From Actinomycetota bacterium (GTDB lineage: Bacteria > Actinomycetota > Acidimicrobiia > Acidimicrobiales > Ilumatobacteraceae), in assembly GCA_009703125.1 (NCBI GenBank), contig WLGS01000003.1:1-58119 (forward strand): 58,119 nucleotides of DNA, written 5' to 3'. Under the pieces are notes generated by a model. The model did no database searches. It was not told the origin of the DNA and saw nothing but the letters and a program-made list of their open reading frames with translations. Positions 12,570 to 36,987 of this stretch are shown here, piece after piece; the stretch's first letter is position 1, and the number at the start of each line of letters is the position of its first letter. The position numbers and the translations under genes were made by a program.

Positions 12570-13163
12570 ATGAGTTCGTTCGTTCATGCCACTGCAGATG
12601 TCGGAGACAACGTCACGCTTGGTGAAAATGCAAAGATCTGGCATTACGCCCAAGTGCGTGAAGGTGTATTAATAGGTAAGAGTTGCATTATTGGACGCGG
12701 CGCATATGTCGGTACAAATGTCCATGTGGGTGATAACTGCAAAATTCAGAACTATGCCCTGGTGTACGAGCCAGCTCATTTAGAAAACGGTGTGTTCATT
12801 GGGCCAGCTGCTGTCCTCACAAATGACCAATTCCCCCGCGCCATAACACCCAATTCCGAGCTCAAAAGCGCCTCAGATTGGGATCCTGTAGGGGTCACCA
12901 TTCGCGAGGGTGCGTCTATTGGGGCTCGGGCAGTATGTGTCGCCCCCATAACCATTGGTCGTTGGGCCACGGTGGGAGCCGGGGCAGTTGTCACAAAAAA
13001 CGTTCCCGATTTTGCCCTCGTGGTGGGCGTTCCGGCTCGCCAAGTGGGTTGGGTGGGTAAACACGGAAAACCGCTACTAGATATTGGTGGCGGTAAGTTT
13101 GAGTGTCCAGTTGATGGCTCTCAATATCTTTTGGACTCACCCGACACTCTCAAGGAAATCTGA
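12570..13163 (+). CDS. wbpD: UDP-sugar 3-N-acetyltransferase (WbpD/WlbB-like)
   Basis: A 197-residue left-handed beta-helix acetyltransferase with hexapeptide repeats (IGKSCIIGRGAYVGTNVHVG, then IGARAVCVAPITIGRWATVG). WbpD/WlbB transfer acetyl from acetyl-CoA to the 3-amino group of UDP-GlcNAc3NA. The hallmark NYALVYEPAHLENGVFIGPAAVLTND matches the family's asparagine- and substrate-binding loop. Beyond the helix, the last 30 residues (FECPVDGSQYLL) form a tail often seen in actinobacterial members. The genuine start is the ATG at 12570 (MSSFVHATADVG); 25 upstream in-frame residues are not family-like. It is first in a four-gene operon with aminotransferase, dehydrogenase and ABC transporter. 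Confidence 0.85.
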   Translation: MSSFVHATADVGDNVTLGENAKIWHYAQVREGVLIGKSCIIGRGAYVGTNVHVGDNCKIQNYALVYEPAHLENGVFIGPAAVLTNDQFPRAITPNSELKSASDWDPVGVTIREGASIGARAVCVAPITIGRWATVGAGAVVTKNVPDFALVVGVPARQVGWVGKHGKPLLDIGGGKFECPVDGSQYLLDSPDTLKEI

Positions 13164-13168
13164 TCAAC

Positions 13169-14245
13169 ATGATTCCAGCAGCTCAGCCCATAATCGGAGA
13201 TGACGAACGTGCTGCGGTAGACCGTGTGCTGCTGTCGGGAATGTTGGCGCAAGGCCCTGAGGTAAAGGCCTTTGAAGATGAATTCTCGCCTTACGTAGAC
13301 AACCGACACTGCATTGCCGTGAACTCAGGTACATCTGCGTTGCATATGGCATTCGTTGCAGCAGGCATACGTGCGGGCGACGAAGTGATTGTGCCTTCAT
13401 TCAGTTTTGCGGCTACAGCAAATGCTGTGCGTCTCACTGGCGCCACACCAGTATTTGCAGATATAGAAACAGACCATTTCAATCTTGATCCTGCAGCAGT
13501 TGAAGCAGCAATTTCGCCCCGCACTCGTGCAATCATGCCCGTGCATCTTTATGGTCACCCCGCTGCAATGACCGAACTGCAAGCTATTTGTCAACGCCAA
13601 AACTTGTTGTTGTTCGAAGATGCCGCGCAAGCACACCTTGCTTCGCTTCACGGAACAAAGGTGGGCGCTTTTGGTGTGGCAGGCTCTTTTTCTTTTTACC
13701 CCACCAAGAACATGACATCTGGCGAAGGCGGCATGGTGACCACTGGCTGCGATCACATCGCTCGTCAAGTACGGCTTTTGCGCAACCAAGGTATGGAGCG
13801 TCGTTACGAAAACGAAGTCATCGGTTTCAACACCCGCATGACAGATCTGCACGCAGCAATTGGCCGTGTGCAACTGCAGAAATTAACTAAGTGGACAGAG
13901 CAACGTCAGGCCAATGCTGCCTTTCTCTCCTCGCACCTCTCAGGAGTTGTTACTCCGCCGGTCGCCGCAGGTGCGGTGCATGTGTATCACCAATACACCG
14001 TGCGCGTGGTTGACCACAACAGAGATGCTTTCGCAGAACAGTTGACAAAGAAGGGTGTGGGCTCAGGCGTGTACTACCCCACGCCTATTCATCGCCTTCC
14101 ATCCTTTGGCCTCTCGTTGGATCTTCCCGTTACAGAACAAGTAGCCACACAATGTCTGTCGCTTCCTGTGCATCCAAGTCTGAGTCAAGGTGACCTTGAA
14201 ACAATTGTGGAAGCGGTCAACTCTGTTGCACGCGCAGGTTCATAA
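13169..14245 (+). CDS. wbpE: DegT/DnrJ-family sugar aminotransferase (WbpE/WlbC-like)
   Basis: A 358-residue PLP-dependent aminotransferase that would turn the 3-keto sugar nucleotide into the 3-amino sugar, with glutamate as amino donor. PLP lysine is Lys180 in SFSFYPTKNMTSGEGG; NSGTSALHMA near 52 binds the phosphate; the FEDAAQAH stretch gives the Asp that pairs with the ring nitrogen. Length is normal for the family. It begins five bases after the acetyltransferase stop. The substrate assignment comes from its place between acetyltransferase and dehydrogenase. Confidence 0.88.
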   Translation: MIPAAQPIIGDDERAAVDRVLLSGMLAQGPEVKAFEDEFSPYVDNRHCIAVNSGTSALHMAFVAAGIRAGDEVIVPSFSFAATANAVRLTGATPVFADIETDHFNLDPAAVEAAISPRTRAIMPVHLYGHPAAMTELQAICQRQNLLLFEDAAQAHLASLHGTKVGAFGVAGSFSFYPTKNMTSGEGGMVTTGCDHIARQVRLLRNQGMERRYENEVIGFNTRMTDLHAAIGRVQLQKLTKWTEQRQANAAFLSSHLSGVVTPPVAAGAVHVYHQYTVRVVDHNRDAFAEQLTKKGVGSGVYYPTPIHRLPSFGLSLDLPVTEQVATQCLSLPVHPSLSQGDLETIVEAVNSVARAGS

Positions 14246-14246
14246 C

Positions 14247-15203
14247 GTGCTGCGCGCAGGTCTAGTCGGCGTCGGCATGATGGGTCGCCATCACATGCGA
14301 CTTCTTGATCAAATCGATGATGTCCATTTTGTAGGAGTCTTCGACCCGGCACTCGTGGGCCAAGACAACATCAACGGCCATGCGCTTTTCAACTCACTTG
14401 ACGACCTCATCGCTACCGGCATGGACTATTGCGTTGTTGCCGCACCTACTGCATTTCACCTCGAACTGGGCCTTCAGTTAGCTAAGGCCGGCGTACATGC
14501 ACTCATTGAAAAGCCTGTTGCACCTACACACACGGAGGCATTGCAACTGGTTGAAGCCTTTTCATCGGCGAACCTCATTGGTGGTGTAGGCCATATTGAG
14601 CGTTTCAACCCAGCCCTTCGCGCCATGCGCCAAAAACTAGAAGAAGGTCTTTTGGGAGAGATTTACCAAATCAGCACCCGCCGCCAAGGCCCTTTTCCCG
14701 CACGTATTGCCGATGTCGGCGTAGTGAAAGACCTCGCCACGCACGATATTGACCTCACTGCGTGGGTCGCCCAAAGCCCCTACAAAACGGTGTCTGCAAA
14801 AACCACACACAAAAGTGGAAGAGACCATGAAGACATGGTGGTGGCTGTGGGAGAACTAGAAAACGGCGTGATTGTGAACCACATTGTGAACTGGTTGTCT
14901 CCCTTTAAGGAACGCAACACCACAGTCATTGGAGACAAAGGTGCTCTCGTAGCAGACACTCTCACCGCAGATCTCACATTTTATGAAAACGCCAAGTTCC
15001 AAAACACCTGGGACAGTGTGTCATCATTCCGAGGCGTGTCAGAGGGTGATGTAATTCGTTTTGCGCTCAACAAAGTGGAACCACTTCTTGCTGAGCACCT
15101 TGCATTTCGTGATGCAGTAAAAAACAAGAACAACGAGGGAATTGTCACTTTGGCAGATGGATTGGCAGCTGTGCAGATTGCCGACCAAATGATTCTGCCA
15201 TGA
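14247..15203 (+). CDS. wbpB: Gfo/Idh/MocA-family sugar-nucleotide 3-dehydrogenase (WbpB/WlbA or GnnA type)
   Basis: A 318-residue NAD-dependent oxidoreductase: Rossmann motif AGLVGVGMMGRHHMRLL at the N-terminus, the EKPVAPTHTEA lysine motif near residue 92, and the signature GHIERFNPAL then GPFPARIADVGVVKDLATHDID. It would oxidise C3 of UDP-GlcNAcA (WbpB/WlbA) or of UDP-GlcNAc (GnnA); the GHIERFNPA form also occurs in the GnnA group, so the exact substrate is open. The GTG at 14247, one base after the aminotransferase stop, is chosen since upstream codons read back into that gene. Confidence 0.8.
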   Translation: MLRAGLVGVGMMGRHHMRLLDQIDDVHFVGVFDPALVGQDNINGHALFNSLDDLIATGMDYCVVAAPTAFHLELGLQLAKAGVHALIEKPVAPTHTEALQLVEAFSSANLIGGVGHIERFNPALRAMRQKLEEGLLGEIYQISTRRQGPFPARIADVGVVKDLATHDIDLTAWVAQSPYKTVSAKTTHKSGRDHEDMVVAVGELENGVIVNHIVNWLSPFKERNTTVIGDKGALVADTLTADLTFYENAKFQNTWDSVSSFRGVSEGDVIRFALNKVEPLLAEHLAFRDAVKNKNNEGIVTLADGLAAVQIADQMILP

Positions 15204-16897
15204 GAGAAATTTGGCGCATTTTCGGTGAAGGGCGCGCCATGCTTTCTTCTTCGGGAAAACGTGTGCTCTATCTTTACGGGCTAGGTCTAATTCTTCTTGC
15301 AGGGCTCGATGGAGTAGCCCTTTACTTTGTATCTCGGGTTTTTAGCACCTCAGCAAATGGCGAGTCCATTGAGATTTCCTCCGGTGGCCCGATTCTACTT
15401 CTGGTAGTTGTTCTCTTCACCTTGCGCACTGTGTTTTCCACACTCATCTCTTGGGCTTCAGTAAAAAGATTTGCTCTTGAAGAGGTGCGAATTGGATCTA
15501 CCAATTTCGAGACTTTGATGAATACATCATGGAACGAGCGTGTGGATGCATCAGTCACAGATCTCTACAACGGCGTGGACCGTGGCCCCACCAATATGGT
15601 TCAGGGTTTGCTCATCAACGTGGTCACCATTGTTGCTGAGGCTGCAACAGCGATTCTCATTCTTGGGGCATTGCTACTTCTGCAACCCACCACAGCACTC
15701 ATTGCTGCCGTCTACTTCGGAGTCGTTGCAGTCGTGCAACACAAGTTGCTCTCACAATCCTCTAGTCGTGCGGGAGAAACGGTAGTTACGCACACCAACC
15801 ATGTCTATGAAACGTTGTCAGATTCTTTTTCTCTCAGCAAACTTCTTAGCGTCAGCCCATCTCATTCGCTCACATCTCACTTAACAGATCACAGGCGCTC
15901 ACTTGCTCTTGCCCGCGGTCGTGTCATTTTTCTTGGCATGCTGCCTCGTTATTTCATGGAACTCATCTTGGCAATGGGTTTAGCAATCATCGCAGGTGGT
16001 ACGTATGCGCTAGCTGGTACCGAAGCCGCTGTTTCTGCTGTCACTGTCTTTGCTGCCGCAGGTTTTCGTCTTCTGCCAATTGTGAATCGAATTCAGGGAC
16101 TCATTCTTCAGCTTTTCTCCACGGCTCCAGGGGCTCGCCTTGCAATGCTCCCTCACGAAGAGATCTCACGCACTTCTGATGCTGTGGCAATCAATGATTC
16201 CCATGCACTCGTCCTTGAGAATGTCTCCTTTCAATACCCCACAAGCGCCCACAAGGTTCTTTCCAATATCAATCTCACCCTTACTACTGGCATGCAATAT
16301 GCGGTTGTGGGGCCATCAGGTGCAGGCAAAACAACATTGGTAGATATTTGCCTCGGCCTCCTCACACCACAAGAAGGCACTGTCTCGTCTACATCAACAC
16401 CCATTGCCTATGTTCCACAAGAGACACATATTGCCCGTCTCTCGTTGGAACAAAACATTGCGCTGGAATGGAGTCCAGAAGCCGTAGACGAGACTGCGGT
16501 CAACAAGGCAATCTCTACCGCCCAGTTATTGAACGTTCTCGATGGCCGCTCGGGCACAGAAAGTCTCTCGGAACAGGCTCTTTCGGGTGGCCAAAAACAA
16601 CGCATCGGCCTGGCGAGAGCCATCTATAGAAACCCCTCACTGCTCTTTCTCGATGAAGTCACCAGCGCGTTGGATGCCGAAACTGAACACGCCGTAATGT
16701 CCTCTATTGAGAGCCTTCGGGGCACCATCACAGTGGTTATCGTTGCGCATCGACTCTCTACAGTGCAGCACGCAGATCAAGTCATCTATGTAGATAAAGG
16801 ACAAATTCTCGGAGTGGGCACCTTTGATGAACTGCGGAAATCTATTCCACAGCTACAACGGCAAATCGAACTTGGCACTCTCGATCTTCTCGATTAG
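15200..16897 (+). CDS. ABC exporter half-transporter, MsbA/PglK-like
   Basis: A 565-residue fusion of a six-helix transmembrane domain (residues about 18-320) and an ATPase domain. Walker A VVGPSGAGKTTLVDI near 372, signature LSGGQKQRIGLARAI near 460, Walker B LLFLDEVTSALDAET, and a switch His in IVAHRLST. The family works as a homodimer and flips lipids or lipid-linked oligosaccharides; PglK of Campylobacter is the close functional model. The ATG overlaps the dehydrogenase stop (ATGA). A second exporter beside Wzm/Wzt suggests a separate flipping step for a lipid-linked intermediate. It overlaps the convergent epimerase gene by four bases. Confidence 0.85.
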   Translation: MREIWRIFGEGRAMLSSSGKRVLYLYGLGLILLAGLDGVALYFVSRVFSTSANGESIEISSGGPILLLVVVLFTLRTVFSTLISWASVKRFALEEVRIGSTNFETLMNTSWNERVDASVTDLYNGVDRGPTNMVQGLLINVVTIVAEAATAILILGALLLLQPTTALIAAVYFGVVAVVQHKLLSQSSSRAGETVVTHTNHVYETLSDSFSLSKLLSVSPSHSLTSHLTDHRRSLALARGRVIFLGMLPRYFMELILAMGLAIIAGGTYALAGTEAAVSAVTVFAAAGFRLLPIVNRIQGLILQLFSTAPGARLAMLPHEEISRTSDAVAINDSHALVLENVSFQYPTSAHKVLSNINLTLTTGMQYAVVGPSGAGKTTLVDICLGLLTPQEGTVSSTSTPIAYVPQETHIARLSLEQNIALEWSPEAVDETAVNKAISTAQLLNVLDGRSGTESLSEQALSGGQKQRIGLARAIYRNPSLLFLDEVTSALDAETEHAVMSSIESLRGTITVVIVAHRLSTVQHADQVIYVDKGQILGVGTFDELRKSIPQLQRQIELGTLDLLD

Positions 16898-17955
16898 AGA
16901 GATGACACTTCTCTCATTTTTTCTTCGTGCTTAGCTATACATTGGCTGATCACATCACGATTATCTCTGGTCCATTGCACTGTTTGCTCAATTCCCTCAG
17001 TTATTGAGACTTGTGCTTGGAATCCCAGTTCTCGCATGGATTTTTCCGTTGAACCGAAACGTCGACCAGACTTATCCCAATCTCGTGCGGGGCGAATATC
17101 TAATGGAGCAGAGTTCCCTGTCGTTGTCTTAATTGTCTCGGCGAGTTCACGAATAGTGGTCTCCACACCAGAGGCGATGTTGTAGGCCTCACCAGGCTTT
17201 CCACCAATTGCACACGCAATCAACCCTCGGCAAATATCATCCACAAAAATGAAATCGCGGCTTACTTCTCCGCCGTTATCAAGTGGAAGTGACTCACCAT
17301 TCAATGATTTCCAAATGAATGTAGGGGTCACATTGCGCCACACAGTGGCATAGGTGCCGCGCCATTGACCAGCACCGAGTATTTCTCGTGGCCCATACAC
17401 ATTCTGAAAACGTGCCTTTACAAAAGGCATGCCACTTCGAGTGAAGAAGTAGTTGCCATACATCTCACCTACCAGCTTTGAAATGGAATATGGGCTGTCA
17501 TGAAAAAGTGACACAGGTGCATCTTCAAGCGTTGCAGTTGGCTCGCCATAGGTCTTCTCTGCAACTGCACATCCAGCCGCCGAATACACCACTTTGGTCA
17601 AGTTATTTCGATGACTCAAGTGCTCAAACAATTTCAGTGATGTCACATTGTTATTGGCGTGATCCGCAAGAGGATCAAAAATGGAGGACTGATTACCGTG
17701 GTAACAAGCGAGGTGCCACACGTAGTCAATATTTTGAGGAATCTGTCTCAACACAAAATCGTCGGCAATAGATCCTGGAATCAAATGAGTCCGTGAATCC
17801 GTGGGAACATTCACATGTTCAGAAGACATGAAGTTATCCACAATTGTCAACGACTTCACATCGCTTTGTAGAAGCATGTGCGAGAGGTTGCTTCCGACAA
17901 AGCCTGCTCCACCCACAACAAGAACACGCTTACCAGAAAACTCGGGATACATCAT
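16894..17955 (-). CDS. NAD-dependent sugar-nucleotide epimerase, WbmF-like
   Basis: A 353-residue extended SDR. NAD-binding loop VLVVGGAGFVGSN near residue 10; catalytic triad from YSAAGC (Ser near 130) and SPYSISKLVGE (Tyr/Lys near 160). The stretch ACYHGNQSSIFDPLADH and later ILGAGQWRGTYATVWRNVTP strongly resemble, from memory, one of the three Bordetella O-antigen SDR enzymes WbmF/WbmG/WbmH, whose structures carry NAD and UDP. Reaction is likely an epimerisation of a di-N-acetylated UDP-uronic acid. The ATG at 17955 overlaps the next gene's stop (ATGA); a second ATG follows at once. Confidence 0.8.
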   Translation of the reverse strand: MMYPEFSGKRVLVVGGAGFVGSNLSHMLLQSDVKSLTIVDNFMSSEHVNVPTDSRTHLIPGSIADDFVLRQIPQNIDYVWHLACYHGNQSSIFDPLADHANNNVTSLKLFEHLSHRNNLTKVVYSAAGCAVAEKTYGEPTATLEDAPVSLFHDSPYSISKLVGEMYGNYFFTRSGMPFVKARFQNVYGPREILGAGQWRGTYATVWRNVTPTFIWKSLNGESLPLDNGGEVSRDFIFVDDICRGLIACAIGGKPGEAYNIASGVETTIRELAETIKTTTGNSAPLDIRPARDWDKSGRRFGSTEKSMRELGFQAQVSITEGIEQTVQWTRDNRDVISQCIAKHEEKMREVSSL

Positions 17956-18881
17956 TTCTTCTCCTGAAGATGACTAAATACATCGGTAATGCCATACGCG
18001 TCATACCAATGCAGCATTTTGTTGATGGTCTCTTCAAAAGAGACCATTGCGCTCCAGCCAAATACTTGGGTGGTTGCAGTGGGGTCAAGAACTACTTCTG
18101 CAACGTCATCAGCACCGGGAGGGTTAATTGCCACGGGCTGTGCATCGGGCATCCCCAAGTGATCTGCCACGAGGCGGAAGATCTCAGAAATGGTGTGTCC
18201 TTCCCCGGTTGATACGTTGAAGATTCCTATAGGCGCATCTGACTTCAACGCAAGTTTCAACATTGAAATAAAATCGGTCATGTCAATGAAATCTCGTACC
18301 GTTGTGGAGACAGAACAGCCCTCGCCTGCTTTCAACCGTTTGTAGAAAGCTGGAATCGGCCCAATCGCCAAGCGGGGTCCTGTCACATTGGCCAACCGAA
18401 GAGACACGGATGGAACTTGGCTGTTCAGCACGAACGCCTCACCTGCGGTCTTGCTAATTCCATAACTCGTGAATGGCTGCAGAGCATGGGTGACTGGTAT
18501 GGGAACCTGTGTCGGCCTGCCATAACACAGTGCGGTCTGAAAGTTCACTAAACGTGTCACCGCATGTGCCTCTGCCGCACGCACCACGTTGATCGAGCCA
18601 ATCACATTGGTCTGACTATCTTCTACCCAGTTATTGGGGTCCTTATAGGAAGCAGCGCTGTGAATCACATGTGTGGGTTGCAATGAAGAGAACACTTTGT
18701 TAACAAGATCAGCATCTACAACAGAGCCTTCAACGATCTCCACGTTGTTGCGAGGAGGTAATGATTCTCTCTTGCCGGTTGCAAAATTATCCAGAACAAC
18801 TATTGCTTCATACTCATCGCCAATATTCTCAATAATGTTCGAACCGAGCGAACCTGCACCGCCAGTAATCAGGAGACGCAT
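17952..18881 (-). CDS. NAD-dependent sugar-nucleotide epimerase, WbmG/WbmH-like
   Basis: A 309-residue SDR: LLITGGAGSLGSNIIE at the N-terminus, FQTALCYGRPTQVPIP near 120 and SYGISKTAGEAF (Tyr, Lys) near 146. The active-site Ser of most SDR epimerases is replaced by Thr in FQTAL, as also in the neighbour. ATG at 18881 shares a base with the upstream stop (TAATG). It is similar to the next gene along its whole length (AASYKDPNNWVED against AAAYKDPDDWLTD), so the two arose by tandem duplication, old enough to have diverged widely. Confidence 0.8.
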   Translation of the reverse strand: MRLLITGGAGSLGSNIIENIGDEYEAIVVLDNFATGKRESLPPRNNVEIVEGSVVDADLVNKVFSSLQPTHVIHSAASYKDPNNWVEDSQTNVIGSINVVRAAEAHAVTRLVNFQTALCYGRPTQVPIPVTHALQPFTSYGISKTAGEAFVLNSQVPSVSLRLANVTGPRLAIGPIPAFYKRLKAGEGCSVSTTVRDFIDMTDFISMLKLALKSDAPIGIFNVSTGEGHTISEIFRLVADHLGMPDAQPVAINPPGADDVAEVVLDPTATTQVFGWSAMVSFEETINKMLHWYDAYGITDVFSHLQEKK

Positions 18882-19813
18882 TAGTCGTTGCTCTTTAGAT
18901 GTGTGTAGCCACCAGTGACACCAAATTCTTGGTAGTACTTCACTGCATTCCACACGGTCACATTGAGTGGCGTGAATTCGATATCGCCGAAATCGGCAAA
19001 CGTGCGAGACGGATCAAGAAGAATAGATGGCGCATCATCGGGCGAAAGTTCACGGCGCTCAGGCTCAGGATAATCACTTATGCCCATGGCTTTGACCACT
19101 TCGTCATACAACTCAATAATCGCGACATCGCCACCGCTAGAGAAATGATAGGCGCCGTGACCGGTGCCTTGGCTCGCCATCATCACTGCCTTTACTAAGT
19201 CCCCGACGTACACAAAGTCTCTGCGAGCGGGCGTAACGAAACATTTCTTTCCTTCGGAAAGACGTTGATAAAAAATAGGAAGAGGTCCTGACACATTACG
19301 TGGCCCCACAACATTTGCTAATCGGAATGTGACATAATCCAATCCAGAGAGAACCAAGTAATCCTCTGCAGCTCCCTTTGAGATGGAATAGCTCGAGTTA
19401 TCTACACGGCGCGGATGCTGTAGCGAGACAGGATTTTCTTCTGGCTTCACTCCGTAAATGAGTGCGGTTTGAAAATACACAAAACGACCTACAGAATTTG
19501 CCTTTGCCGCGTCTACCAAGTTCACCATTCCACGAATGTTGGTATCCACATCTGTGAGCCAATCATCGGGGTCTTTGTAGGCAGCAGCTGTGTGCACCAA
19601 CACGTCAGGCTTGAAATCACTGATGAGTTGTTGCACCAGTTCAGTATTGGAGATGGAACCTTCTACAAAGTTGTACTGAGAAGATCCTGCTACATGTACA
19701 TCACGTCCGGTGGCAAAGTTGTCGATTCCCACAACTTCATCTCCCCTCGCAATTGCACTATCAACAACATGGGACCCAACTTGGCCAGCAGCACCTGTTA
19801 CAAAAATTTTCAC
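18881..19813 (-). CDS. NAD-dependent sugar-nucleotide epimerase, WbmG/WbmH-like
   Basis: A 310-residue SDR, paralogue of the gene after it. MKIFVTGAAGQVGSHVVDS binds NAD; FQTALIYGVKPEEN and SSYSISKGAAEDYL hold Thr, Tyr and Lys of the active site; RRDFVYVGDLV follows. It starts with GTG. The -10 box TAGACT begins in the stop codon TAG of the upstream asnB-like gene and ends six bases before this GTG, so this gene opens the three-gene epimerase operon with its own promoter. Confidence 0.8.
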   Translation of the reverse strand: MKIFVTGAAGQVGSHVVDSAIARGDEVVGIDNFATGRDVHVAGSSQYNFVEGSISNTELVQQLISDFKPDVLVHTAAAYKDPDDWLTDVDTNIRGMVNLVDAAKANSVGRFVYFQTALIYGVKPEENPVSLQHPRRVDNSSYSISKGAAEDYLVLSGLDYVTFRLANVVGPRNVSGPLPIFYQRLSEGKKCFVTPARRDFVYVGDLVKAVMMASQGTGHGAYHFSSGGDVAIIELYDEVVKAMGISDYPEPERRELSPDDAPSILLDPSRTFADFGDIEFTPLNVTVWNAVKYYQEFGVTGGYTHLKSND

Positions 19814-19819: not shown

Positions 19820-19825
19820 AGTCTA
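19820..19825 (-). promoter_or_regulatory. -10 box TAGACT fused to the upstream stop codon
   Basis: The TAG that ends the asparagine-synthase-like gene is also the first half of TAGACT; six bases later comes the GTG of the epimerase gene. There is no room for a ribosome site. Confidence 0.5.
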
Positions 19826-21739: not shown

Positions 21740-21746
21740 TTCGGTA

Positions 21747-21752: not shown

Positions 21753-21755
21753 GTT

Positions 21756-27695: not shown

Positions 27696-27701
27696 TTAGG
27701 T

Positions 27702-28946: not shown

Positions 28947-30060
28947 CAATTCTCCGAAACACTTTGGAAAAATCACTATTTGCGAGTTGCAGCAGATACT
29001 CATGATTAGGAAATTTACGATGGCTCACGGCCTCCATATGCATGTAACTCTCTAATTCATCAACTGAGATATCAAGTTTTCTTGCCACATAAGCAATCAT
29101 GTTGCGTTCTTCGGTTTCCGTTACTGGCTTCTTCGCAAGTTCTTGCAACGCGTCAGATCTTGTAACTTGTCCTGAAACAATAAGGCTCGAAAGGTATGCG
29201 CGGCGCTTATCAATTCCAAATCTCCTTGGAAGGTAAACGGATTGATAGAAGCTAGTGAAAGATGATTCACCGTGTTTACCTTCATAGTGTTTCCATGCAA
29301 TTAGCTCATTGAGTTTCTTCTGTGCTTCACCTTTTGAATAGTCCACTTGAGTTAATGGCTTGTGCACCTGTAATCGACGTAAGAGAAAATCTGCCACATA
29401 CAGTCTTGGGATTGTGAGGAATGGAAACGACGAAAAAGACCCTCCGTCAAATTTCCGAGCTATTGCCCTCACTTGTCGGCCATCCATGGCCCCATATTCC
29501 CAAGCCCTAGGCAGAATTGATTCTGTTGTGACGTTCTCCCCGGTGATGACGTCGTTGAGTTGCTGTTGAGCAGAAAAACGATACAGACTCGCAAAGAAGG
29601 CGTGATCTTGTGGAACATCTTGATTCATCAGACCACTCTTCAAATAGGCAATCTGCAATCGTCTCATTTCATCCCAATTGACAACTACCGTCTTTAGCTT
29701 CAAGTCGTAATGTTCTACCAAAGCACGAATATTGGAGCTGGAGATGTCACTATTCCATCCGGCATCCACATGTACAACCAGCGGTCGTAAACCATGCTCC
29801 ACTGCCAGTGTTAACACATAAGCACTGTCGAGACCGCCACTCAAACCGATAATGCCATCGTGTTTGTTTTTGATATTTCTTGTCTTAATACTGTCAAAAG
29901 TTTCTTCAAGATGGGACGACAAGTAGTTCTCACGATTCTTGGCGAGCAACGCTTCCGCTTTGCGGCAATGCGAACAATTCCCACCAGAATCAAATTCAAT
30001 TTCAGGGTCGCTAATGTCCATCACACAACGGACGCATTCGATCTTTTCAGAATTTTGCAT
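28936..30060 (-). CDS. wbpG: Sugar-nucleotide amidotransferase, WbpG-like
   Basis: A 374-residue N-acetyl sugar amidotransferase of the WbpG/PseA group. Cys pairs CVRC (9-12) and CSHC (29-32) form a zinc site; the PP-loop is GLSGGLDSAYVL near 74-82, which binds ATP to activate the acetamido group, after which ammonia from HisH-HisF makes the acetamidine. Length matches WbpG (about 376). Two ATGs are close together; the second, at 30060, lies at a normal distance from AAGAGAG, the first (30066) is nearly inside it. Expected substrate here is UDP-ManNAc3NAcA or a related di-acetamido uronic acid. Confidence 0.85.
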   Translation of the reverse strand: MQNSEKIECVRCVMDISDPEIEFDSGGNCSHCRKAEALLAKNRENYLSSHLEETFDSIKTRNIKNKHDGIIGLSGGLDSAYVLTLAVEHGLRPLVVHVDAGWNSDISSSNIRALVEHYDLKLKTVVVNWDEMRRLQIAYLKSGLMNQDVPQDHAFFASLYRFSAQQQLNDVITGENVTTESILPRAWEYGAMDGRQVRAIARKFDGGSFSSFPFLTIPRLYVADFLLRRLQVHKPLTQVDYSKGEAQKKLNELIAWKHYEGKHGESSFTSFYQSVYLPRRFGIDKRRAYLSSLIVSGQVTRSDALQELAKKPVTETEERNMIAYVARKLDISVDELESYMHMEAVSHRKFPNHEYLLQLANSDFSKVFRRIVRS

Positions 30061-30071
30061 CCGCATCTCTC

Positions 30072-31265
30072 TTAATCCTGTTCAGGCTTAGATTGAAGAG
30101 ATTCCTTATGCCGGGATGCTCGCATGGCATCCTGAATGACAGAGAGAAGCTTTTGACATTCTGTCTGAGCGTTCACTGTTTCTGCGGCCCGATTCAAATT
30201 CTCTCTCAGTTTCAAGAGTTCCTTCTTATCAAGGCTTGCGACCAACGCTCGAACATCTTCTACATCGTAAGAATCAGCAACATAACCAATACCAAACTTC
30301 TGGACGAACCCCGATAGGTCTGGAGCTGGACCTACCACCACAGGTCTGCGTGCCTGAATACAATCAAAAAGCTTGTTGGGCAAAGAATGTTTGAGGCTGA
30401 AATTTGAAGGATGGATATAAAGAAATCCCGCATCGTAATTAGAGATGGTGGTTGGAAGTTCAGAAGAAGGAACTGGGGTTTCAATTACACAATTGTCATA
30501 CGAGGCGCACACTTTACGTAAACCCTTGAGAGTTCTTTTCTGACGTGGTGCCTCAACCAAGTAAAGACTCAATGAGACGCCTGGGAGATTACCGACTGCT
30601 CTGATCATCTTGTCAAGATGGCGCCCGCGTGCAGCAAGTCCTGTGTGCACGAGGCGCAGAACATCGTCCTTAGACGGTTCAGAATCTATGTCCACATAAT
30701 CACGAGCATTTCTCACAACCTCTACATGAATATCAAAATCCTGTGAATATCTTTGAGCTAGTCCACCGGATACCGTGACCACGGCATCGGCCTTCCTTAG
30801 ATATTTGTCACACAAATACGTGTAATAGCGCTGCAAAAGAATTCTGAAGCGCCAATCATCTTCCATCTCTAAGGGCGCATATTCATGCATATCGATAACC
30901 GTGACTGAATCTGAATCCAATGAATCAATCAAAGGCAGACATTGAACATCGTTGATCAAGACAATTTTGGGTTTCAAAGCTGACAATTGTGAAGAAACGT
31001 ACTCAACTGCCTGTGACTTGAGTGTCGTCGATCCCCTCAAGTTCAAGAGCAATTGAACAATTCCGACAAGGGATAGAGGCAGATACTTCGTTGAGGTAGG
31101 AATTTCAATGTGGCGAGTTACGTTGGTAGGTCGTGGACCGTAACCAATTGAAGTGATGTCAAATTCATCAGATAGATATCGGATGTGCCTACTTATCCGA
31201 ACATCACTGGCAATTTGTGTAAATGAGATGACGGTTAATGCAGCCTTCTCACCTTTATTCGACAT
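30072..31265 (-). CDS. GT4-like glycosyltransferase, paralogue 2
   Basis: A 397-residue GT-B glycosyltransferase, homologous to the gene at 27702: LRLVHTGLAARGRHLDKMIRAV and SLPNKLFDCIQARRPVVVGP match it block by block. The acceptor domain carries VISFTQIASDVRISRHIRYL at the N-terminus and DMHEYAPLE near 145. The last 25 residues are charged and probably disordered. A TAATCT box ends six bases before the ATG. It stands just upstream of wbpG (five to eleven bases), so wbpG is likely co-transcribed with it. Confidence 0.8.
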   Translation of the reverse strand: MSNKGEKAALTVISFTQIASDVRISRHIRYLSDEFDITSIGYGPRPTNVTRHIEIPTSTKYLPLSLVGIVQLLLNLRGSTTLKSQAVEYVSSQLSALKPKIVLINDVQCLPLIDSLDSDSVTVIDMHEYAPLEMEDDWRFRILLQRYYTYLCDKYLRKADAVVTVSGGLAQRYSQDFDIHVEVVRNARDYVDIDSEPSKDDVLRLVHTGLAARGRHLDKMIRAVGNLPGVSLSLYLVEAPRQKRTLKGLRKVCASYDNCVIETPVPSSELPTTISNYDAGFLYIHPSNFSLKHSLPNKLFDCIQARRPVVVGPAPDLSGFVQKFGIGYVADSYDVEDVRALVASLDKKELLKLRENLNRAAETVNAQTECQKLLSVIQDAMRASRHKESLQSKPEQD

Positions 31266-31271
31266 TTTCTC

Positions 31272-31277
31272 AGATTA
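31272..31277 (-). promoter_or_regulatory. Probable -10 box TAATCT for GT4 paralogue 2 and wbpG
   Basis: TAATCT, then GAGAAA, then ATG at 31265. Confidence 0.5.
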
Positions 31278-31383
31278 CATTCTGTGTGCTTTGATTTTTT
31301 GTATCCAATTGAAGAAATTTCAGTCTGTTTCTATCACTTCTAGATTCGAAGTTGTCCAAGGGAACAAAAGCACACTATTTGAG

Positions 31384-32703
31384 TCAATTAGCTTCAGAAT
31401 CACTGCCGATAACTTCATTGATATCAAACACTTCTATCGAGGTCCAACGGTGCACCGCTTCAATTTGGTGCCATGATCCATTTCGGGCAGATTTTGAATG
31501 TCGGCGGATGACTTTAAGTCGGTTTGATCGAGACTTCAGCGAGGCAATCTTTTCGTAAAGATCTCGCTCCACAAAGGGAATCTTTACTTCTGCTGGTTCA
31601 TCTAATGCAGTAAAGCCTTTGGACACTGCGACATCTTCAATCCACTTTTCGCGTCGCCATTTTGGGTTGCCAAAAAGTTCCATGTGGCAACGCTCTGCCA
31701 TGCCAACTGCTTCCGAGGATTTAATGAATTTTGCAACGGACTCACAGTCTGACAAATCAGAACTGATTGGAACAAAATGATTCCACTCTTCTATGCCGTA
31801 GGGAACTGTACTTTTTTCAAGAACTTGAAGAACTTGCAAAGAGGCTGCCTCGAAAACTCTTGGCGAAGGAGCAAGAAAGGACTTCTCGCGCTGTCTATCG
31901 CCGATATATCTAGCTAATTGTCGCTCAAACTCTTCATTCTTGAAGACATCCTGAATCACAAGGGCTCTGGCTTGATCCAAAGGTGAATTACTCACTAGAG
32001 AGGCCCCACTATGTCGGCCAATTGTGGCACGACAGTTGGCCAAGAACTCGAACCATTCAAAACCAGAAAATCGATCTCTCTCATCTATAGAAACATCGCA
32101 ACTCAGGCCTAATTCAGTCATTCTCTTCGAGAACCCAGCTGCCAAGTCAGCTTTTCGCCGCCCTTCACTTCCAAACTCAAGCGAGAGTTCAAAAACTCTC
32201 TGTCCTACATCAATGGTTCGCATATCCCACTCAATCCGGAGAGATGAGAGCAATTGATCCATTTTTTTATCAGCAAAACCAATCAGCCATGGCTTTGCAG
32301 TGATTCCATATTCAGCATAAATACTGTCAACGTCAGCAAAGACAGAGTAAATCTCGATATCCATTTCTTTGGCGAAGCGAACCGTCTGGTCGATCCGGTG
32401 ATAGTCGTCTTGCAAGAACAGAATTCGATGAGATGCACTTAGTAAGACCTTTGAACTGCGGCGCAAAAGTGTGGGCCAATACGGTGAAGATCGCATAATC
32501 ATGAAACTGTTAGACACAATTACCAAATCAAAATTCCTGTCATCAACTTCATCTAACCCTGGTCCCAGCACATTGATAAAGGTGACCTCAGCAAACTTTG
32601 AGAGCAGTGCCAAGGAATACAAATCTCGCGCATTTGTATGGGGTTCATCTCTATCAATTTGACAATGCAGAACACAAATTGACTTGTTCAAACTTCGTCC
32701 CAT
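31384..32703 (-). CDS. Putative glycosyltransferase, CgeB-like paralogue B
   Basis: A 439-residue member of the three-copy family with genes 21756 and 32916, and the most diverged. Shared blocks are TIDVGQRVFELSLEFG, CDVSIDERDRFSGFEWFEFL, GRHSGASLVSNSP and APSPRVFEAASLQVLQVLE. The invariant Glu of PRVFEA should bind the donor ribose or phosphate as in other CgeB-like GT-B proteins. N-terminus ICVLHCQIDRDEPHTNAR replaces the ALRxxSRxTTxxH opening of the others. Start ATG follows TAAGGT by six bases. Function unknown beyond likely sugar transfer. Confidence 0.6.
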   Translation of the reverse strand: MGRSLNKSICVLHCQIDRDEPHTNARDLYSLALLSKFAEVTFINVLGPGLDEVDDRNFDLVIVSNSFMIMRSSPYWPTLLRRSSKVLLSASHRILFLQDDYHRIDQTVRFAKEMDIEIYSVFADVDSIYAEYGITAKPWLIGFADKKMDQLLSSLRIEWDMRTIDVGQRVFELSLEFGSEGRRKADLAAGFSKRMTELGLSCDVSIDERDRFSGFEWFEFLANCRATIGRHSGASLVSNSPLDQARALVIQDVFKNEEFERQLARYIGDRQREKSFLAPSPRVFEAASLQVLQVLEKSTVPYGIEEWNHFVPISSDLSDCESVAKFIKSSEAVGMAERCHMELFGNPKWRREKWIEDVAVSKGFTALDEPAEVKIPFVERDLYEKIASLKSRSNRLKVIRRHSKSARNGSWHQIEAVHRWTSIEVFDINEVIGSDSEAN

Positions 32704-32709
32704 TTATCT

Positions 32710-32715
32710 ACCTTA
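32710..32715 (-). promoter_or_regulatory. Probable -10 box TAAGGT for paralogue B
   Basis: TAAGGT, six bases, ATG at 32703: the same box and spacing as at 12505 and 35707. Confidence 0.5.
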
Positions 32716-32915
32716 TTGATAACAAGAAATATCAGCTTTGAGCGCATCGCTAAACCAACTGCACTTCGGTAGATAATGACTCGGGCGTAAGACCGCGAAA
32801 TCTTTACCAAATACTGAAATAGCGGATAGTTAATCATGATTTGCAATAGTTGATTACCACGTAATGGTTGTTTCGCATCTTAATCAAGCAACCGAAAAAT
32901 CCTGAGATGGAATGC
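32716..32915. other. AT-rich spacer between paralogues B and C
   Basis: The longest gene-poor stretch. It holds a possible 49-residue minus-strand frame (32688-32837) without a ribosome site and a 5-bp hairpin GGTTG/CAACC with an 18-base loop (near 32866-32893) that may help end the upstream transcript. Nothing else is recognised. Confidence 0.4.
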
Positions 32916-34286
32916 TCAGAGAGCTCGCCAAATCCAAGGTGCTCGCATACCAATTGGGTCGGAAGCAGAAGCGGCCTGTATTGATTGAAACCATTCGCTC
33001 AATGAGAGTCTGTTCAAGATTCGATTGACATGGGCATGTTCTGCGGTGGTACTGGAGGTGAGGTCGTAACCGCTTTGCAGCGCATGCATCACAGCGTCGT
33101 GCAACTCAGGCGCTAGTTCTTGGGCTGAACGTGAGAACCGAAGGAATTCAGCAAAATCATTCCATTGGGCACAATCCCCTCCTTGTGTGGGCAGCAGTCC
33201 CCCACATGCCGTCTCTACAAGTTGTGAATAGTCAAACATCTGTGAATCAACGAGTGCAATCCGAGCATTAGCCACTATTTCCTGACATCGCTCAGTGTCT
33301 CTCATTGCGTTCAAAACTTCGTCCATATTGGAAAAGTCTCGATTGAGTGGAACGTAATCGCGCCAAGGTTCCAACACGCCAAGGTAATCATCTCGTTCCA
33401 AAATCTGACATGTGCCTGCCATTGAGGCTTCGAACAATCTCGGGCTAATGGCCGTGAATTGATGTTTCATGTCTTTGCCCTTGAAACACTTTTGCTCAAT
33501 CTCATCAAAAGATGCCTCTGGATGACGAGCAAGATATGCCTGAACCTTCGTATGTGTAAGACCATAGGGATCGTGCAAGCTCGCGCCACCTTTCATTCCC
33601 ACGGTGAACTTGCAGGATGAAAGAAACTCGAACCACGCAGCACCAATGAATGAGTCTTCTACTCGGGTGGAGACATCTACATTGAGGCCGGCATTCTTGG
33701 CGGCACTTGCCATTGTGACCGCTTGACGAGCTTTTGCCTGAGCGAGTCTGCCGAGGTGCGGAGGCATGTCCCGCACGCGTTGACCTAGATCAATCGAACG
33801 ATCACGCAATAAAGAGGTACGGGGAACGGGTCCAGACTTCACATACCCCGTCAGTGCGGTACGAAACTCTTTATGTTTAATGCTCCGTGGATAGAGAACA
33901 TCGAGATCATTATCAATCGGTGTCAAGATGCGATCAACGTTCCAATCCATACACCAGTTATCAAGGTGTTTGTTAGCCCAGAAATCATCCTGTGCAATCG
34001 CCACAACTTTGCCTGCACGCTGAGCAATCTTTTTATGGCGATTTTTTATAAACGGCCACAGCGGTGTGAACCTGTAATTCAGAAAGTCATAGTTGATGAC
34101 GAATACATCGGGAGAGATGTTTTCATACTCTGCAGGTAGTGGCTGTTGAAAGTGCAGATACTGAACATCTGCTTCGGGGAGATGTTCACGAAAACTGTCC
34201 AAATGATCAATAGTTGTTTGCCTACTCGTAGGTCGTAGTGCATGCATTACTAATACTTTTGGCCGCGAAGTGTTATTCGTATTCAT
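32916..34286 (-). CDS. Putative glycosyltransferase, CgeB-like paralogue C
   Basis: A 456-residue protein, closest to paralogue A: VLVMHALRPTSRQTTIDHL at the N-terminus, SIDLGQRVRDMPPHLG, VDVSTRVEDSFIGAAWFEFL, MKGGASLHDPYG, and TAISPRLFEASMAGTCQILE near 290, then EPWRDYVPLNRDFSNMDEV. The last 100 residues are helical and specific to this copy. The ATG at 34286 follows the stop of the 97-residue gene by two bases; an upstream in-frame extension to 34385 would run across that gene and is rejected. Probably co-translated with it. Confidence 0.65.
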   Translation of the reverse strand: MNTNNTSRPKVLVMHALRPTSRQTTIDHLDSFREHLPEADVQYLHFQQPLPAEYENISPDVFVINYDFLNYRFTPLWPFIKNRHKKIAQRAGKVVAIAQDDFWANKHLDNWCMDWNVDRILTPIDNDLDVLYPRSIKHKEFRTALTGYVKSGPVPRTSLLRDRSIDLGQRVRDMPPHLGRLAQAKARQAVTMASAAKNAGLNVDVSTRVEDSFIGAAWFEFLSSCKFTVGMKGGASLHDPYGLTHTKVQAYLARHPEASFDEIEQKCFKGKDMKHQFTAISPRLFEASMAGTCQILERDDYLGVLEPWRDYVPLNRDFSNMDEVLNAMRDTERCQEIVANARIALVDSQMFDYSQLVETACGGLLPTQGGDCAQWNDFAEFLRFSRSAQELAPELHDAVMHALQSGYDLTSSTTAEHAHVNRILNRLSLSEWFQSIQAASASDPIGMRAPWIWRAL

Positions 34287-34288
34287 AG

Positions 34289-34582
34289 TTAGTACATCTG
34301 GTGATGAAGGCCACTGCTGCGAAGAAGTCGTGAGGCAAGTTTTGGAAACAAAAGAACTGCGCGTTGACCTACATATTGTGCCCAAGCGGGTAAAAACATG
34401 GTGAGTCGAACCAATCCATGTTGGCCTGGCACCGGAGCAACTTCTAGTGCGCTCTTCACACGTGTTGCTAAATCTGCATCAATTGTTCCGTCTGGAAGCG
34501 ATGATGCCCACAAAAGTTCGCCACGATGATGCGTAAGGATTGCACTGCATACTCGTAACTGAATGTGGTCTCGCTCATCCAT
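34289..34582 (-). CDS. Small protein between wecB and paralogue C
   Basis: A 97-residue protein of no known family. It opens MDERDHIQLRVCSAILTHH, has DADLATRVKSALEVAP in the middle and ends with a basic, hydrophobic helix (AWAQYVGQRAVLLFPKLASR). The ATG at 34582 lies eight bases inside the wecB end, and the stop is two bases before the next ATG; this tight packing is the main evidence. A longer frame from 34726 would lie inside wecB and is not believable. It stands before paralogue C as the 52-residue gene stands before paralogue A. Confidence 0.5.
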   Translation of the reverse strand: MDERDHIQLRVCSAILTHHRGELLWASSLPDGTIDADLATRVKSALEVAPVPGQHGLVRLTMFLPAWAQYVGQRAVLLFPKLASRLLRSSGLHHQMY

Positions 34583-35645
34583 GAACAAGTGCTTCTTCCA
34601 TTGCGCGCACAGCGCGCGCCGCAGCAATGCCCATGCCATAAGGATGCTCAGTTGGTTTGGCGTACGACTTGTTGAGTACTTCGTCAATGGTAAGCACGCA
34701 CTCTGCGTCCAACACATTCCAACCAAGAGTGACCGTCTCTACCCACTCTGTCTCGGTGCGCACGGTGATGCATGGTGTGCGTAACAGAAAAGCCTCTTTC
34801 TGCAACCCACCAGAATCGGTGACTACACCTTTCGCATTTAAGACTGCATGCATGAGTTGTGGATAGGAAAGTGGATCAAATACTGAGATATTGCCTTGTG
34901 TTAGTTGTAGTCCAAATTCTTCTGCTTTTGCTTTAAGCCGAGGGTGCGCAAGAAGACGCACTGGCACTGTCGACGCAGCCAAGTACGCAAGAATCTTGCT
35001 TAAGCGTTGAGCATCATCGGTGTTTTCTTGGCGGTGAATAGTAGAGACAACGTACTCACCTTCCACATTCCAACCATTAGGCATCTTTGGAGCGGATTGT
35101 TGTACTCGATCACGAGTGGAGTAACACACATCTGTCATCACATCACCCACCACAACAGTGCGGCCAGATAAACCTTCGGTGGCAAGATGTTGTGCCGCCA
35201 CATCTGTGGGTGCTAACAAAAGATCTGCTGCGTGATCAGTGAGTACTCGGTTGTGTTCTTCAGGCATTTGACGATTGAACGATCTCAATCCGGCCTCTAG
35301 ATGTGCGAGGCGCTGATGAATCTTTACTGCAGCAATTGATGCAGCAAGAGTGGAATTGGTATCTCCATAGACCAACACCCAATCTGGTGTGTGACGGAGG
35401 AAAGACTCTTCCAGCAATTCCAACATGGCTGCGGTTTGTCGGCCATGCGCGGCTGACCCGACCGCCAAGTTTTCATCCGGATGAGGAATGCCGAGATCTT
35501 CAAAGAAGATGTCGGACATGTCACGGTCGTAATGTTGGCCGGTGTGCACGATGATGTGCTGATGCCCAGCCGCCACTAGGGCATGGTGGATTGGTGCCAG
35601 TTTTACAAACTGAGGCCGTGCGCCAACAACACTTAGAACTCGCAC
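34575..35645 (-). CDS. wbpI: UDP-N-acetylglucosamine 2-epimerase family (WbpI/WecB)
   Basis: A 356-residue non-hydrolysing 2-epimerase. GARPQFVKLAPI at the N-terminus, HTGQHYDRDMSDIFFEDLGI near 35-54, VYGDTNSTLAA near 92, HLEAGLRSFNRQMPEEHNR near 115 and TIHRQENTD near 205 are family blocks. WecB acts on UDP-GlcNAc, WbpI on UDP-GlcNAc3NAcA; the MSDIFFEDLGI form fits both, and I prefer WbpI because the 3-acetamido and amidino enzymes are present. It starts with GTG behind a good ribosome site AGAGAGGTGA. It is divergent from the dehydrogenase at 35707. Confidence 0.85.
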   Translation of the reverse strand: MRVLSVVGARPQFVKLAPIHHALVAAGHQHIIVHTGQHYDRDMSDIFFEDLGIPHPDENLAVGSAAHGRQTAAMLELLEESFLRHTPDWVLVYGDTNSTLAASIAAVKIHQRLAHLEAGLRSFNRQMPEEHNRVLTDHAADLLLAPTDVAAQHLATEGLSGRTVVVGDVMTDVCYSTRDRVQQSAPKMPNGWNVEGEYVVSTIHRQENTDDAQRLSKILAYLAASTVPVRLLAHPRLKAKAEEFGLQLTQGNISVFDPLSYPQLMHAVLNAKGVVTDSGGLQKEAFLLRTPCITVRTETEWVETVTLGWNVLDAECVLTIDEVLNKSYAKPTEHPYGMGIAAARAVRAMEEALVHG

Positions 35646-35659
35646 GCGTCACCTCTCTT
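35646..35659 (-). promoter_or_regulatory. Ribosome binding site of the 2-epimerase gene
   Basis: AGAGAGGTGA ends three to four bases before the GTG, one of the strongest Shine-Dalgarno sites here. It decides the GTG start at 35645. Confidence 0.6.
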
Positions 35660-35694
35660 TAATGCAACCTGAGCATTCTAGAAGCGCAATTGAG

Positions 35695-35700
35695 TAAGGT
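35695..35700 (+). promoter_or_regulatory. Probable -10 box TAAGGT for the HexNAc dehydrogenase
   Basis: TAAGGT, six bases, ATG at 35707, with no ribosome site. Confidence 0.5.
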
Positions 35701-35706
35701 TGCAGT

Positions 35707-36987
35707 ATGCAGATTGCCGTTGTCGCACTTGGAAAAATTGGGTTACCTCTCGCTGTTCAGTTCGCAGAAAAAGGACATTCCGTCATCGGATGCGATGTAA
35801 ATGCGCACACGGTGGAGTTGGTGAACACAGGCAAAGAACCATTTCCTGGTGAAACGCATCTGCAAGAGAAGTTGTCGGTGGTGGTAACGGATGGGACTCT
35901 TGTTGCTACCACCGACACTGCTTCGGCGGTAGCCAAGGCCGATGCAGTGGTGATTGTGGTGCCCCTTTTTGTGGATGCAGAGGGTGTCCCCGACTTTGGA
36001 TGGATGGACGCAGCTACTCGAGATGTTGCTAGTGGGTTGCGTAAAGGGGCCTTGGTGTCCTATGAGACCACTCTTCCTGTCGGAACAACGCGCAATCGAT
36101 TCGCAAAAATGCTCGAAGAAGGTAGTGGCCTCAAAGCCGGTGTCGATTTTCATCTTGCATTTAGCCCCGAGCGAGTTTTCACAGGTCGAGTCTTTGAGGA
36201 CTTACGCAGATACCCGAAGCTTGTGGGCGGGTTGACCGAAGCATGTGGCAAGGCAGCCGAAGATTTCTATTCCGCCGTATTGGACTTTGACGAGCGGCCC
36301 GATCTTCCGCGCCCAAACGGTGTGTGGAACTTGGGAAATCCAGAAGCCTCCGAGATGGCCAAGTTGGCCGAGACGACCTACCGCGATGTGAATATTGGCT
36401 TAGCGAACCAGTTCGCTTTGTTTGCACAACAGAACGACATCGACGTGTATGCAGTGATTGATGCTTGCAACAGCCAACCCTTTAGCCATATACATAGGCC
36501 CGGTATTGCAGTCGGTGGACACTGCATACCTATATATCCGCGCATGTATCTCTGGAATGATCCTTCGGCCACGGTCGTGCGTGCTGCACGAGAGGCGAAT
36601 GCCCAGATGCCTGTTCATTCCGTGAGCCGACTAGAGGAAGTTTTTGGGTCTGTAGCTGGAAAGAAAGTTGTGGTACTTGGTGCTGCATATAGAGGTGGCG
36701 TGAAAGAGACTGCGTTTTCTGGAGTGTTTCCTACCGTTGACGACCTAAAGCGTCGCGGTGCATCTGTTGTGGTGCATGACCCGATGTATACGGATGATGA
36801 ATTGCGGCATGAAGGTTTCGAGCCGTTTCATTTTGGCGAATCTGCAGATGCTGCGATCTTGCAAGCAGATCATGCTGAATACGTTCATCTCACAAAATCT
36901 GATTTGCCTGGTGTGACTGTGTTGCTCGATGGTCGCAATCACGTAAAGTCCGCACAAGACATAAAGATTGTCTCACTAGGTCGTTAA
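35707..36987 (+). CDS. wbpA: UDP-N-acetyl-hexosamine 6-dehydrogenase (WbpA/WecC)
   Basis: A 426-residue NAD-dependent dehydrogenase. Rossmann start IAVVALGKIGLPLAVQFAEKG; catalytic Cys273 in VGGHCIPIYP, the form that marks UDP-HexNAc dehydrogenases as against GGSCFPKD of the ugd gene at 3090; FSPERVFTG near 152. It makes UDP-GlcNAcA (WbpA) or UDP-ManNAcA (WecC). With WbpB, E, D and I homologues nearby the WbpA role fits best; pairing with the divergent 2-epimerase alone would also allow UDP-ManNAcA. The first Gly-x-Gly loop reads GKIG after AL, slightly unusual but seen in the family. Confidence 0.88.
   Translation: MQIAVVALGKIGLPLAVQFAEKGHSVIGCDVNAHTVELVNTGKEPFPGETHLQEKLSVVVTDGTLVATTDTASAVAKADAVVIVVPLFVDAEGVPDFGWMDAATRDVASGLRKGALVSYETTLPVGTTRNRFAKMLEEGSGLKAGVDFHLAFSPERVFTGRVFEDLRRYPKLVGGLTEACGKAAEDFYSAVLDFDERPDLPRPNGVWNLGNPEASEMAKLAETTYRDVNIGLANQFALFAQQNDIDVYAVIDACNSQPFSHIHRPGIAVGGHCIPIYPRMYLWNDPSATVVRAAREANAQMPVHSVSRLEEVFGSVAGKKVVVLGAAYRGGVKETAFSGVFPTVDDLKRRGASVVVHDPMYTDDELRHEGFEPFHFGESADAAILQADHAEYVHLTKSDLPGVTVLLDGRNHVKSAQDIKIVSLGR

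Follow-up and report, generated by a model that had tools for sequence, protein, structure and literature searches.

The region considered here, referred to throughout as the window, is a stretch of 58,119 nucleotides from an Actinomycetota bacterium of the family Ilumatobacteraceae (contig WLGS01000003.1 of assembly GCA_009703125.1, our contig C74; the assembly comprises 1.93 Mb in 150 contigs and is 94% complete), and it carries eight genes that may together specify an acetamidino-bearing 2,3-diamino-uronic acid. Three of these lie in a row on the forward strand, namely D (12570–13163), a hexapeptide N-acetyltransferase resembling WbpD, WlbB and UtrJ (best PDB match 3mqg at 156 bits, runner-up 105; we take 3mqg to be the Bordetella WlbB), E (13169–14245), a DegT/DnrJ sugar aminotransferase of the UtrA/WbpE kind (PF01041, 413 bits), and B (14247–15203), a Gfo/Idh/MocA 3-dehydrogenase resembling GnnA and UtrB (NF040723, UDP-GlcNAc 3-dehydrogenase, 204 bits, below the cut-off of 450). 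Alternative starts are possible for D (TTG at 12495) and B (GTG at 14190). Further along are the non-hydrolysing UDP-sugar 2-epimerase I (34575–35645, reverse strand; WbpI/UtrH-like; TIGR00236, 252 bits, cut-off 210) and the nucleotide-sugar (UDP-sugar) 6-dehydrogenase DH (35707–36987, forward strand; TIGR03026, 304 bits, cut-off 190), which is of the type of the Streptomyces utr cluster. The amidination trio is on the reverse strand and consists of HisF2, the ammonia-channel partner (26311–27099; nearest to AglZ/HisF2 NF038364, 287 bits, cut-off 310), HisH2, a glutaminase (27075–27683; TIGR01855, the HisH family, 178 bits, cut-off 105), and WbpG, a WbpG/WbuX-type N-acetyl sugar amidotransferase (NASAT; 28936–30066; TIGR03573, 212.6 bits, cut-off 203.2). 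A preliminary description of the window had proposed these eight genes as a complete set scattered over several units on both strands; all eight are open frames of the expected families with key residues kept, the scatter is as described, and a complete gene set for such a sugar in an actinobacterium is supported.

As a reference of the wbp type we used the locus of Pseudomonas taeanensis, in which the start of the locus truncates WbpA and the gene order presumably resembles that of P. aeruginosa. HisH2 of the window keeps the GICVG and HPE motifs, with the Cys and His-Glu residues, and HisF2 has Leu in place of the first cyclase Asp, as does P. taeanensis HisF2, with the second Asp kept; these residues of HisF and HisH have catalytic roles. 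WbpG carries the PP-loop motif SGGLDS at position 76, with CVRC at 11 and CSHC at 31, and a PP-loop SGGXDS together with a tetracysteine motif is reported for NASAT enzymes (PMC10607449). Where conservation among relatives reaches at least 95%, the window protein deviates at 4 of 49 columns in WbpG, 1 of 32 in HisH2 and 2 of 45 in HisF2; for D, with the threshold at 90%, the figure is 1 of 41. Contig C84 of the same genome encodes another hisF, which exceeds its cut-off (361 bits), indicating that HisF2 is a paralogue distinct from histidine biosynthesis. The trio is 41–46% identical to the P. taeanensis copies, and a search of the PDB with the window WbpG gave no match at E 0.01.

The epimerase scores 327 bits against a UDP-GlcNAc3NAcA 2-epimerase (PDB 8sxv) and 116 bits against E. 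coli WecB (1f6d). In the Thermus UDP-GlcNAc3NAcA epimerase, Trp307, Tyr96 and Ala18 are reported to take the place of the Arg, His/Gln and Leu/Met found in UDP-GlcNAc epimerases (PMC10622841). The Trp marker was present in 66 of 83 aligned rows (short fragments L131 and L133 left out, identical sequences counted once), and the window epimerase keeps the Trp, Tyr and Gln markers, thus having the residues of both Trp307 and Tyr96. The combination of Trp and Tyr with Leu at position 18 occurs in seven rows including that of the window, all from actinobacterial genomes with a utr-type dehydrogenase nearby. Ala18 is retained both in haloarchaeal epimerases accompanied by a similar 3-dehydrogenase and in actinobacterial rows of family f62, so Leu18 does not simply track the type of 3-dehydrogenase. 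In these seven WbpI-type epimerases Leu18 may reflect a change of the C6 pocket.

The preliminary description had likened the five sugar enzymes to the Wbp line of P. aeruginosa. Identity to the P. taeanensis counterparts is 29% for DH, 37% for E, 43% for I and 40% for D, and for B no more than 128 residues align, at 23%. Two dehydrogenase trees were built, of 44 and 56 rows, the second omitting the long-branch rows L152 and L044 and the duplicate L148; the first kept all three and agrees. The window enzyme falls inside an actinobacterial group of 19 rows (support 100/99) and outside a WbpA-type group of 25 rows (100/98), and it stands apart from WecC, Cap5O and the P. horikoshii enzyme, a group whose support is weak (86/35). 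In a tree of 31 3-dehydrogenases, B belongs to a set (97/88) with PDB 7bvj, two haloarchaeal enzymes and proteins of G529 and G475, two other genomes of the family, and 17 WbpB-type rows are separated from it by a branch of 4.41. WlbA (3q2k), also a 3-dehydrogenase of the pathway to ManNAc3NAcA, the di-N-acetylated mannuronic acid, lies on the window's side of this branch and outside the window's supported sets. We take 7bvj to be a GnnA enzyme, its PDB title giving oxidoreductase only. The WbpB of P. taeanensis had no NCBIfam match at E 1e-15. GnnA is reported to oxidize the 3-hydroxyl of UDP-GlcNAc (PMC5644692). By tree and by best NCBIfam match, the gene at 14247, initially named WbpB, is instead UDP-GlcNAc-3-dehydrogenase (GnnA)-like, and the kinship of the five enzymes with the Wbp line is abandoned because the trees put neither the dehydrogenase with WbpA nor the 3-dehydrogenase with WbpB, and the module is utr-like. 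An origin from a Gram-negative wbp cluster is set aside for these five and may still apply to the trio. Assignment to WecB and WecC, which the preliminary description had named as fatal to the pathway, was also examined; the epimerase is WbpI-like in bit scores and marker residues and the dehydrogenase lies outside the WecC group, which leaves the proposed pathway unrefuted on this point. A plain WecB/WecC reading is set aside on the epimerase residues, the dehydrogenase tree and the gene row of G529, in which E, B, DH and I are adjacent and D is on the same contig; this row in the same family also indicates that the set in the window is not a chance co-occurrence.

A closer relative of the module was found within the phylum. 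In a sample of 396 genomes DH was matched at E 1e-80 in 16, and 20 kb was read around each of the other 15, of which, at E 1e-40, 12 have B, eight have E and ten have I. All five enzymes including D, each at least 58% identical, occur at two of these loci (L215 and L218). In G233, the genome of L215, identity is 63% for D, 62% for E, 58% for B, 73% for DH and 58% for I, and its DH shares the actinobacterial tree group of 19 rows with that of the window. A family 2 glycosyltransferase (GT2) with a TarS linker sits there between B and DH, and the order aminotransferase, oxidase, TarS-like glycosyltransferase, dehydrogenase matches utrA–D; other genes differ in part from utr, since one end carries a C5-epimerase-like gene and the ten frames scanned include no member of the UDP-glucose-epimerase family. 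The gene order and the TarS-linker GT2 suggest that G233 is a Streptomyces and that this is its utr cluster. The utr wall polymer of S. griseus, a strain with the 2-epimerase gene utrH, is reported to contain ManNAc3NAcA by nuclear magnetic resonance (NMR), and S. antibioticus, described as being without utrH, to have a GlcNAc3NAcA polymer (PMC13274773). Four of our loci (L224–L227) have DH, B, E and D and no epimerase, and their genomes gave no epimerase match at E 1e-55; given these and the S. antibioticus polymer, the notion that C2 epimerization must precede a WecC-type oxidation was dropped as a necessity. The closeness of all five enzymes to G233 argues that the module of the window is of the actinobacterial utr type. 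None of the 15 loci matched any of the trio queries (WbpG, HisH2, HisF2) at E 1e-5, and TIGR03573 was not among the matches listed at E 0.001 for the 15 genomes. No TarS-like glycosyltransferase of the UtrC type (PF22181) was found among the window frames scanned, the rest of the genome not having been searched.

The trio is sparsely distributed. The cut-off of TIGR03573 is exceeded in only one of 41 close relatives, the genome of the window itself, and in eight of the 396 phylum-sample genomes, again with this one included, and protein search gave WbpG in 6 of 200 genomes of a family sample. In the latter sample the epimerase was matched at E 1e-30 in 17 genomes, and of the 15 genomes long enough to be read three have the Trp type (the window's own, G529 and G601). 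Combinations vary within the family. G529 has no WbpG match at E 1e-15; G601 has the epimerase and the trio, with no utr-type dehydrogenase found in the 40 kb read; and two further genomes combine the utr-type dehydrogenase with the trio, these being G496 and G475, the latter with the row D-E-B-HisF-WbpG-HisH, a second WbpG and DH (L144, L145). Elsewhere in the phylum, a single contig of G216 carries both WbpG and a WbpI-like gene, so that their pairing is not unique to the Ilumatobacteraceae. A WbpG tree of 100 rows, made by a quick method from rows chosen because they resembled an alignment headed by the window WbpG, leaves the position of the window poorly fixed; four label changes or more are needed to account for the family's WbpG rows, a hint that the family acquired WbpG repeatedly. 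Among 78 public WbpG loci, HisH and HisF are nearby in 67, a WbpI-like epimerase in 31 and asparagine-synthase-like genes, within the stretch read, in 27.

Our current working hypothesis is that a utr-type route would produce UDP-ManNAc3NAcA and that the trio would convert this sugar to ManNAc3NAmA, its acetamidino form, within a surface glycan exported by Wzm and Wzt. We place the probability of this account as a whole at roughly 0.6; it draws on gene content, motifs, tree placement and synteny, with the ManNAc3NAcA product in print for a Streptomyces relative (PMC13274773). Starting from UDP-GlcNAc, B would oxidize C3, E would transaminate and D would N-acetylate, giving the 3-acetamido group, after which DH would oxidize C6 and I would epimerize C2 to yield UDP-ManNAc3NAcA; the GnnA-like character of B favours oxidation of C3 before C6. 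HisH2 would free ammonia from glutamine, HisF2 would channel it to WbpG, and WbpG, spending ATP, would convert N-acetyl to acetamidino. Glycosyltransferases would then incorporate ManNAc3NAmA into the glycan, for export by the ATP-binding cassette (ABC) transporter comprising a Wzm ABC-2 permease (550–1371, reverse strand; PF01061, ABC2_membrane, 62 bits; 80–82% identical in two genus relatives) and a Wzt ATPase (7024–8223, forward strand; PF00005 and a C-terminal Wzt_C, PF14524; 59–62% in the same relatives), whose domains bear out the exporter noted at the outset. The individual activities in this host, the amidine on ManNAc3NAcA, the order of steps, export and charge are all predictions from sequence. 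The glycan had been foreseen as partly cationic; the carboxyl may stay, giving a zwitterion, or may be amidated, giving a cationic sugar, by two asparagine-synthase-like amidotransferases (19823–21766, TIGR01536 at 498 bits, cut-off 267, a possible uronamide former; and 24290–26197, 412 bits, with a similar putative role; both on the reverse strand). Some asparagine-synthase-like proteins of the public WbpG loci are 57–61% identical to the first of these.

The eight genes lie within a larger island. Two genus relatives (G003 and G532) share the left flank of Wzm, glycosyltransferase, UDP-glucose dehydrogenase, methyltransferase, glycosyltransferase and Wzt, as well as FhaA. The gap between Wzt and RmlA is about 2.7 kb in G003 versus 33 kb in the window; in G532, Wzt and FhaA are separated by 17 kb in which most genes are different. 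The interval 8224–41487, between the conserved Wzt and RmlA flanks, appears to be a glycan island of variable content. The window, G003 and G532 each have a tRNA-Leu(CAG) in this region, in the window at 38220–38303. On the right flank, RmlA, RmlB, RmlD and RmlC (41488–44819, by Pfam) would supply dTDP-rhamnose. A second export candidate is an MsbA/PglK-like full ABC transporter (15200–16897, forward strand; every named family below cut-off). Three frames in a row (16894–19813) resemble GalE and dTDP-glucose dehydratases of the short-chain dehydrogenase/reductase (SDR) type, below cut-offs, and are a possible source of another sugar. Three predicted GT-B glycosyltransferases on the reverse strand are mutually 26–38% identical: 21756–23168 (38% to the third; sub-threshold Pfam match only), 31384–32703 (32% to the first; no Pfam match) and 32916–34295 (no Pfam match). 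For the last an AlphaFold model (pLDDT 72, pTM 0.69) gave GT-B enzymes as top Foldseek matches (E 5e-7, TM 0.43–0.46). Kin of these paralogues occur in some alphaproteobacterial and Neomarinimicrobiota WbpG loci. A weakly matched GT4-like glycosyltransferase (27702–28946, forward strand; weak Pfam matches) and a glycosyltransferase-like protein (30072–31265, reverse strand; no Pfam match), resembling frames in many WbpG loci, are also present, and three large frames (8220–10556, 10553–12505 and 39748–41487) have no Pfam match and look membrane-spanning by eye. The block 19823–34295, containing the trio, both asparagine synthases and the new glycosyltransferases, has a GC content of 0.451, and the module halves have 0.518 (12570–15203) and 0.509 (34575–36987); the simplest history is perhaps that an amidination block was inserted into an actinobacterial sugar module.

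A number of observations weigh against the working hypothesis. Among solved structures, UDP-ManNAc dehydrogenases come nearest to DH (225 and 186 bits), and NCBIfam UDP-ManNAc models, while below their cut-off, rank top among its specific models, although these model scores do not discriminate because the P. taeanensis WbpA scores likewise. Aminotransferase E is matched better by PDB 7b0d and 2oga than by WbpE; the epimerase has Leu at position 18, the triad Ala, Tyr and Trp being that of 49 of the 83 rows; HisF2 falls short of the NF038364 cut-off; and the WbpG branch is very long (2.63). A 19 kb stretch containing the trio separates D/E/B from I/DH. WbuX of E. coli O145 is reported to act on FucNAc (PMC10607449), and G475, with its trio, has no epimerase match at E 1e-30, which indicates that a manno sugar is not a necessary substrate of the trio; G475 perhaps makes an amidinated gluco form.

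Of the alternatives, the one that fares best is that the five enzymes make UDP-ManNAc3NAcA while the trio amidinates another N-acetyl sugar in the same glycan, such as a product of the three SDR frames of the island. We consider this unlikely, though deserving of real weight. It has the WbuX precedent, and in 47 of the 78 public WbpG loci no WbpI-like epimerase above 180 bits was found within the stretch read; however, only 54 of the 78 are at least 20 kb long, which makes the missing epimerase a weak argument, the window has its trio flanked by the halves of the ManNAc3NAcA module, and D-E-B of G475 is followed directly by HisF, WbpG and HisH. Two separate sugars, with D/E/B leading to a GlcNAc3NAc-type sugar and the epimerase and dehydrogenase forming a WecB/WecC-like pair for ManNAcA, would account for the placement of D-E-B apart from I and DH, the similarity of DH to UDP-ManNAc dehydrogenases and the presence at position 18 of the residue type of UDP-GlcNAc epimerases, but we regard this as improbable given the Trp, Tyr and Gln markers, the single row E-B-DH-I in G529, the position of DH outside the WecC group and the five of 15 DH genomes with no epimerase match at E 1e-55 (G048, G063, G147, G211, G333). 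That the genes are a decaying or silent cassette making no amidinated glycan is the least probable, since for all the rarity of TIGR03573 in the genus, the low GC of the middle block and the long WbpG branch, all eight reading frames are uninterrupted and the strongly conserved columns are almost all retained.

Returning to the utr-type route followed by amidination, it is tempting to speculate on its wider significance. One tentative and rather doubtful suggestion is that actinobacteria use a re-ordered route, with GnnA-like oxidation of C3 first and a Leu18 epimerase and dehydrogenase that accept 3-acetamido sugars whose C6 hydroxyl is still free, and that in the Ilumatobacteraceae amidination then turns an anionic teichuronic-acid-like polymer zwitterionic or cationic, the genes forming an exchangeable cassette by which the cell evades phages or lectin-guided toxins. 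With the GnnA-like 3-dehydrogenase and the Leu18 epimerases, the step order of the actinobacterial route becomes a question for enzymology. This class of polymer has recently been reported as a receptor of Streptomyces umbrella toxins (PMC13274773), and a charge-altering cassette, if real, would be a candidate for receptor diversification. The glycan had also been put forward as novel for the group; ManNAc3NAcA is already known in actinobacterial walls, and only the amidine would be new. No acetamidino sugar in an actinobacterial glycan was found in the open-access literature searched, an absence of little weight.

Comparison with known systems places the window among several partial counterparts. 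The B-band wbp system of P. aeruginosa (WbpA, B, E, D and I with WbpG, HisH and HisF) has the same eight activities as those expected here, but the dehydrogenase and 3-dehydrogenase of the window come from other groups, gene order and setting are different, and the product would not be lipopolysaccharide (LPS). In the archaellin N-glycan of Methanococcus maripaludis the third sugar is reported to carry an acetamidino group through the WbpG homologue MMP1081 (PMC2952790). There, by description rather than by sequence, a WbpG homologue modifies a mannuronic-type sugar outside LPS, although on an archaeal protein-linked glycan. Haloarchaeal plasmid operons of Haloarcula pelagica (L115, 7973–13263) and Salinibaculum litoreum (L116, 9281–15365) cluster the same five kinds of enzyme with a GnnA-like B, and had no trio match in the 25 kb read; their E, B, DH and I are 30–48% identical to those of the window (E 48%), and their epimerase keeps Ala. 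The utr cluster of S. griseus and S. antibioticus, for a teichuronic-acid-like wall polymer, shares the five UDP-ManNAc3NAcA enzymes, a likeness drawn through G233 and not from named utr sequences; it differs in that the sampled utr-type loci are without the trio and that the window has an ABC exporter with Wzt_C. Should the hypothesis hold, the amidine chemistry of LPS, flagellar glycans and archaeal N-glycans would also have been grafted onto actinobacterial di-N-acetyl-uronic-acid glycans. The amidine-bearing sugar is rare and known from Pseudomonas and some archaea, and in the window the trio has apparently been added to an existing actinobacterial wall-sugar pathway.

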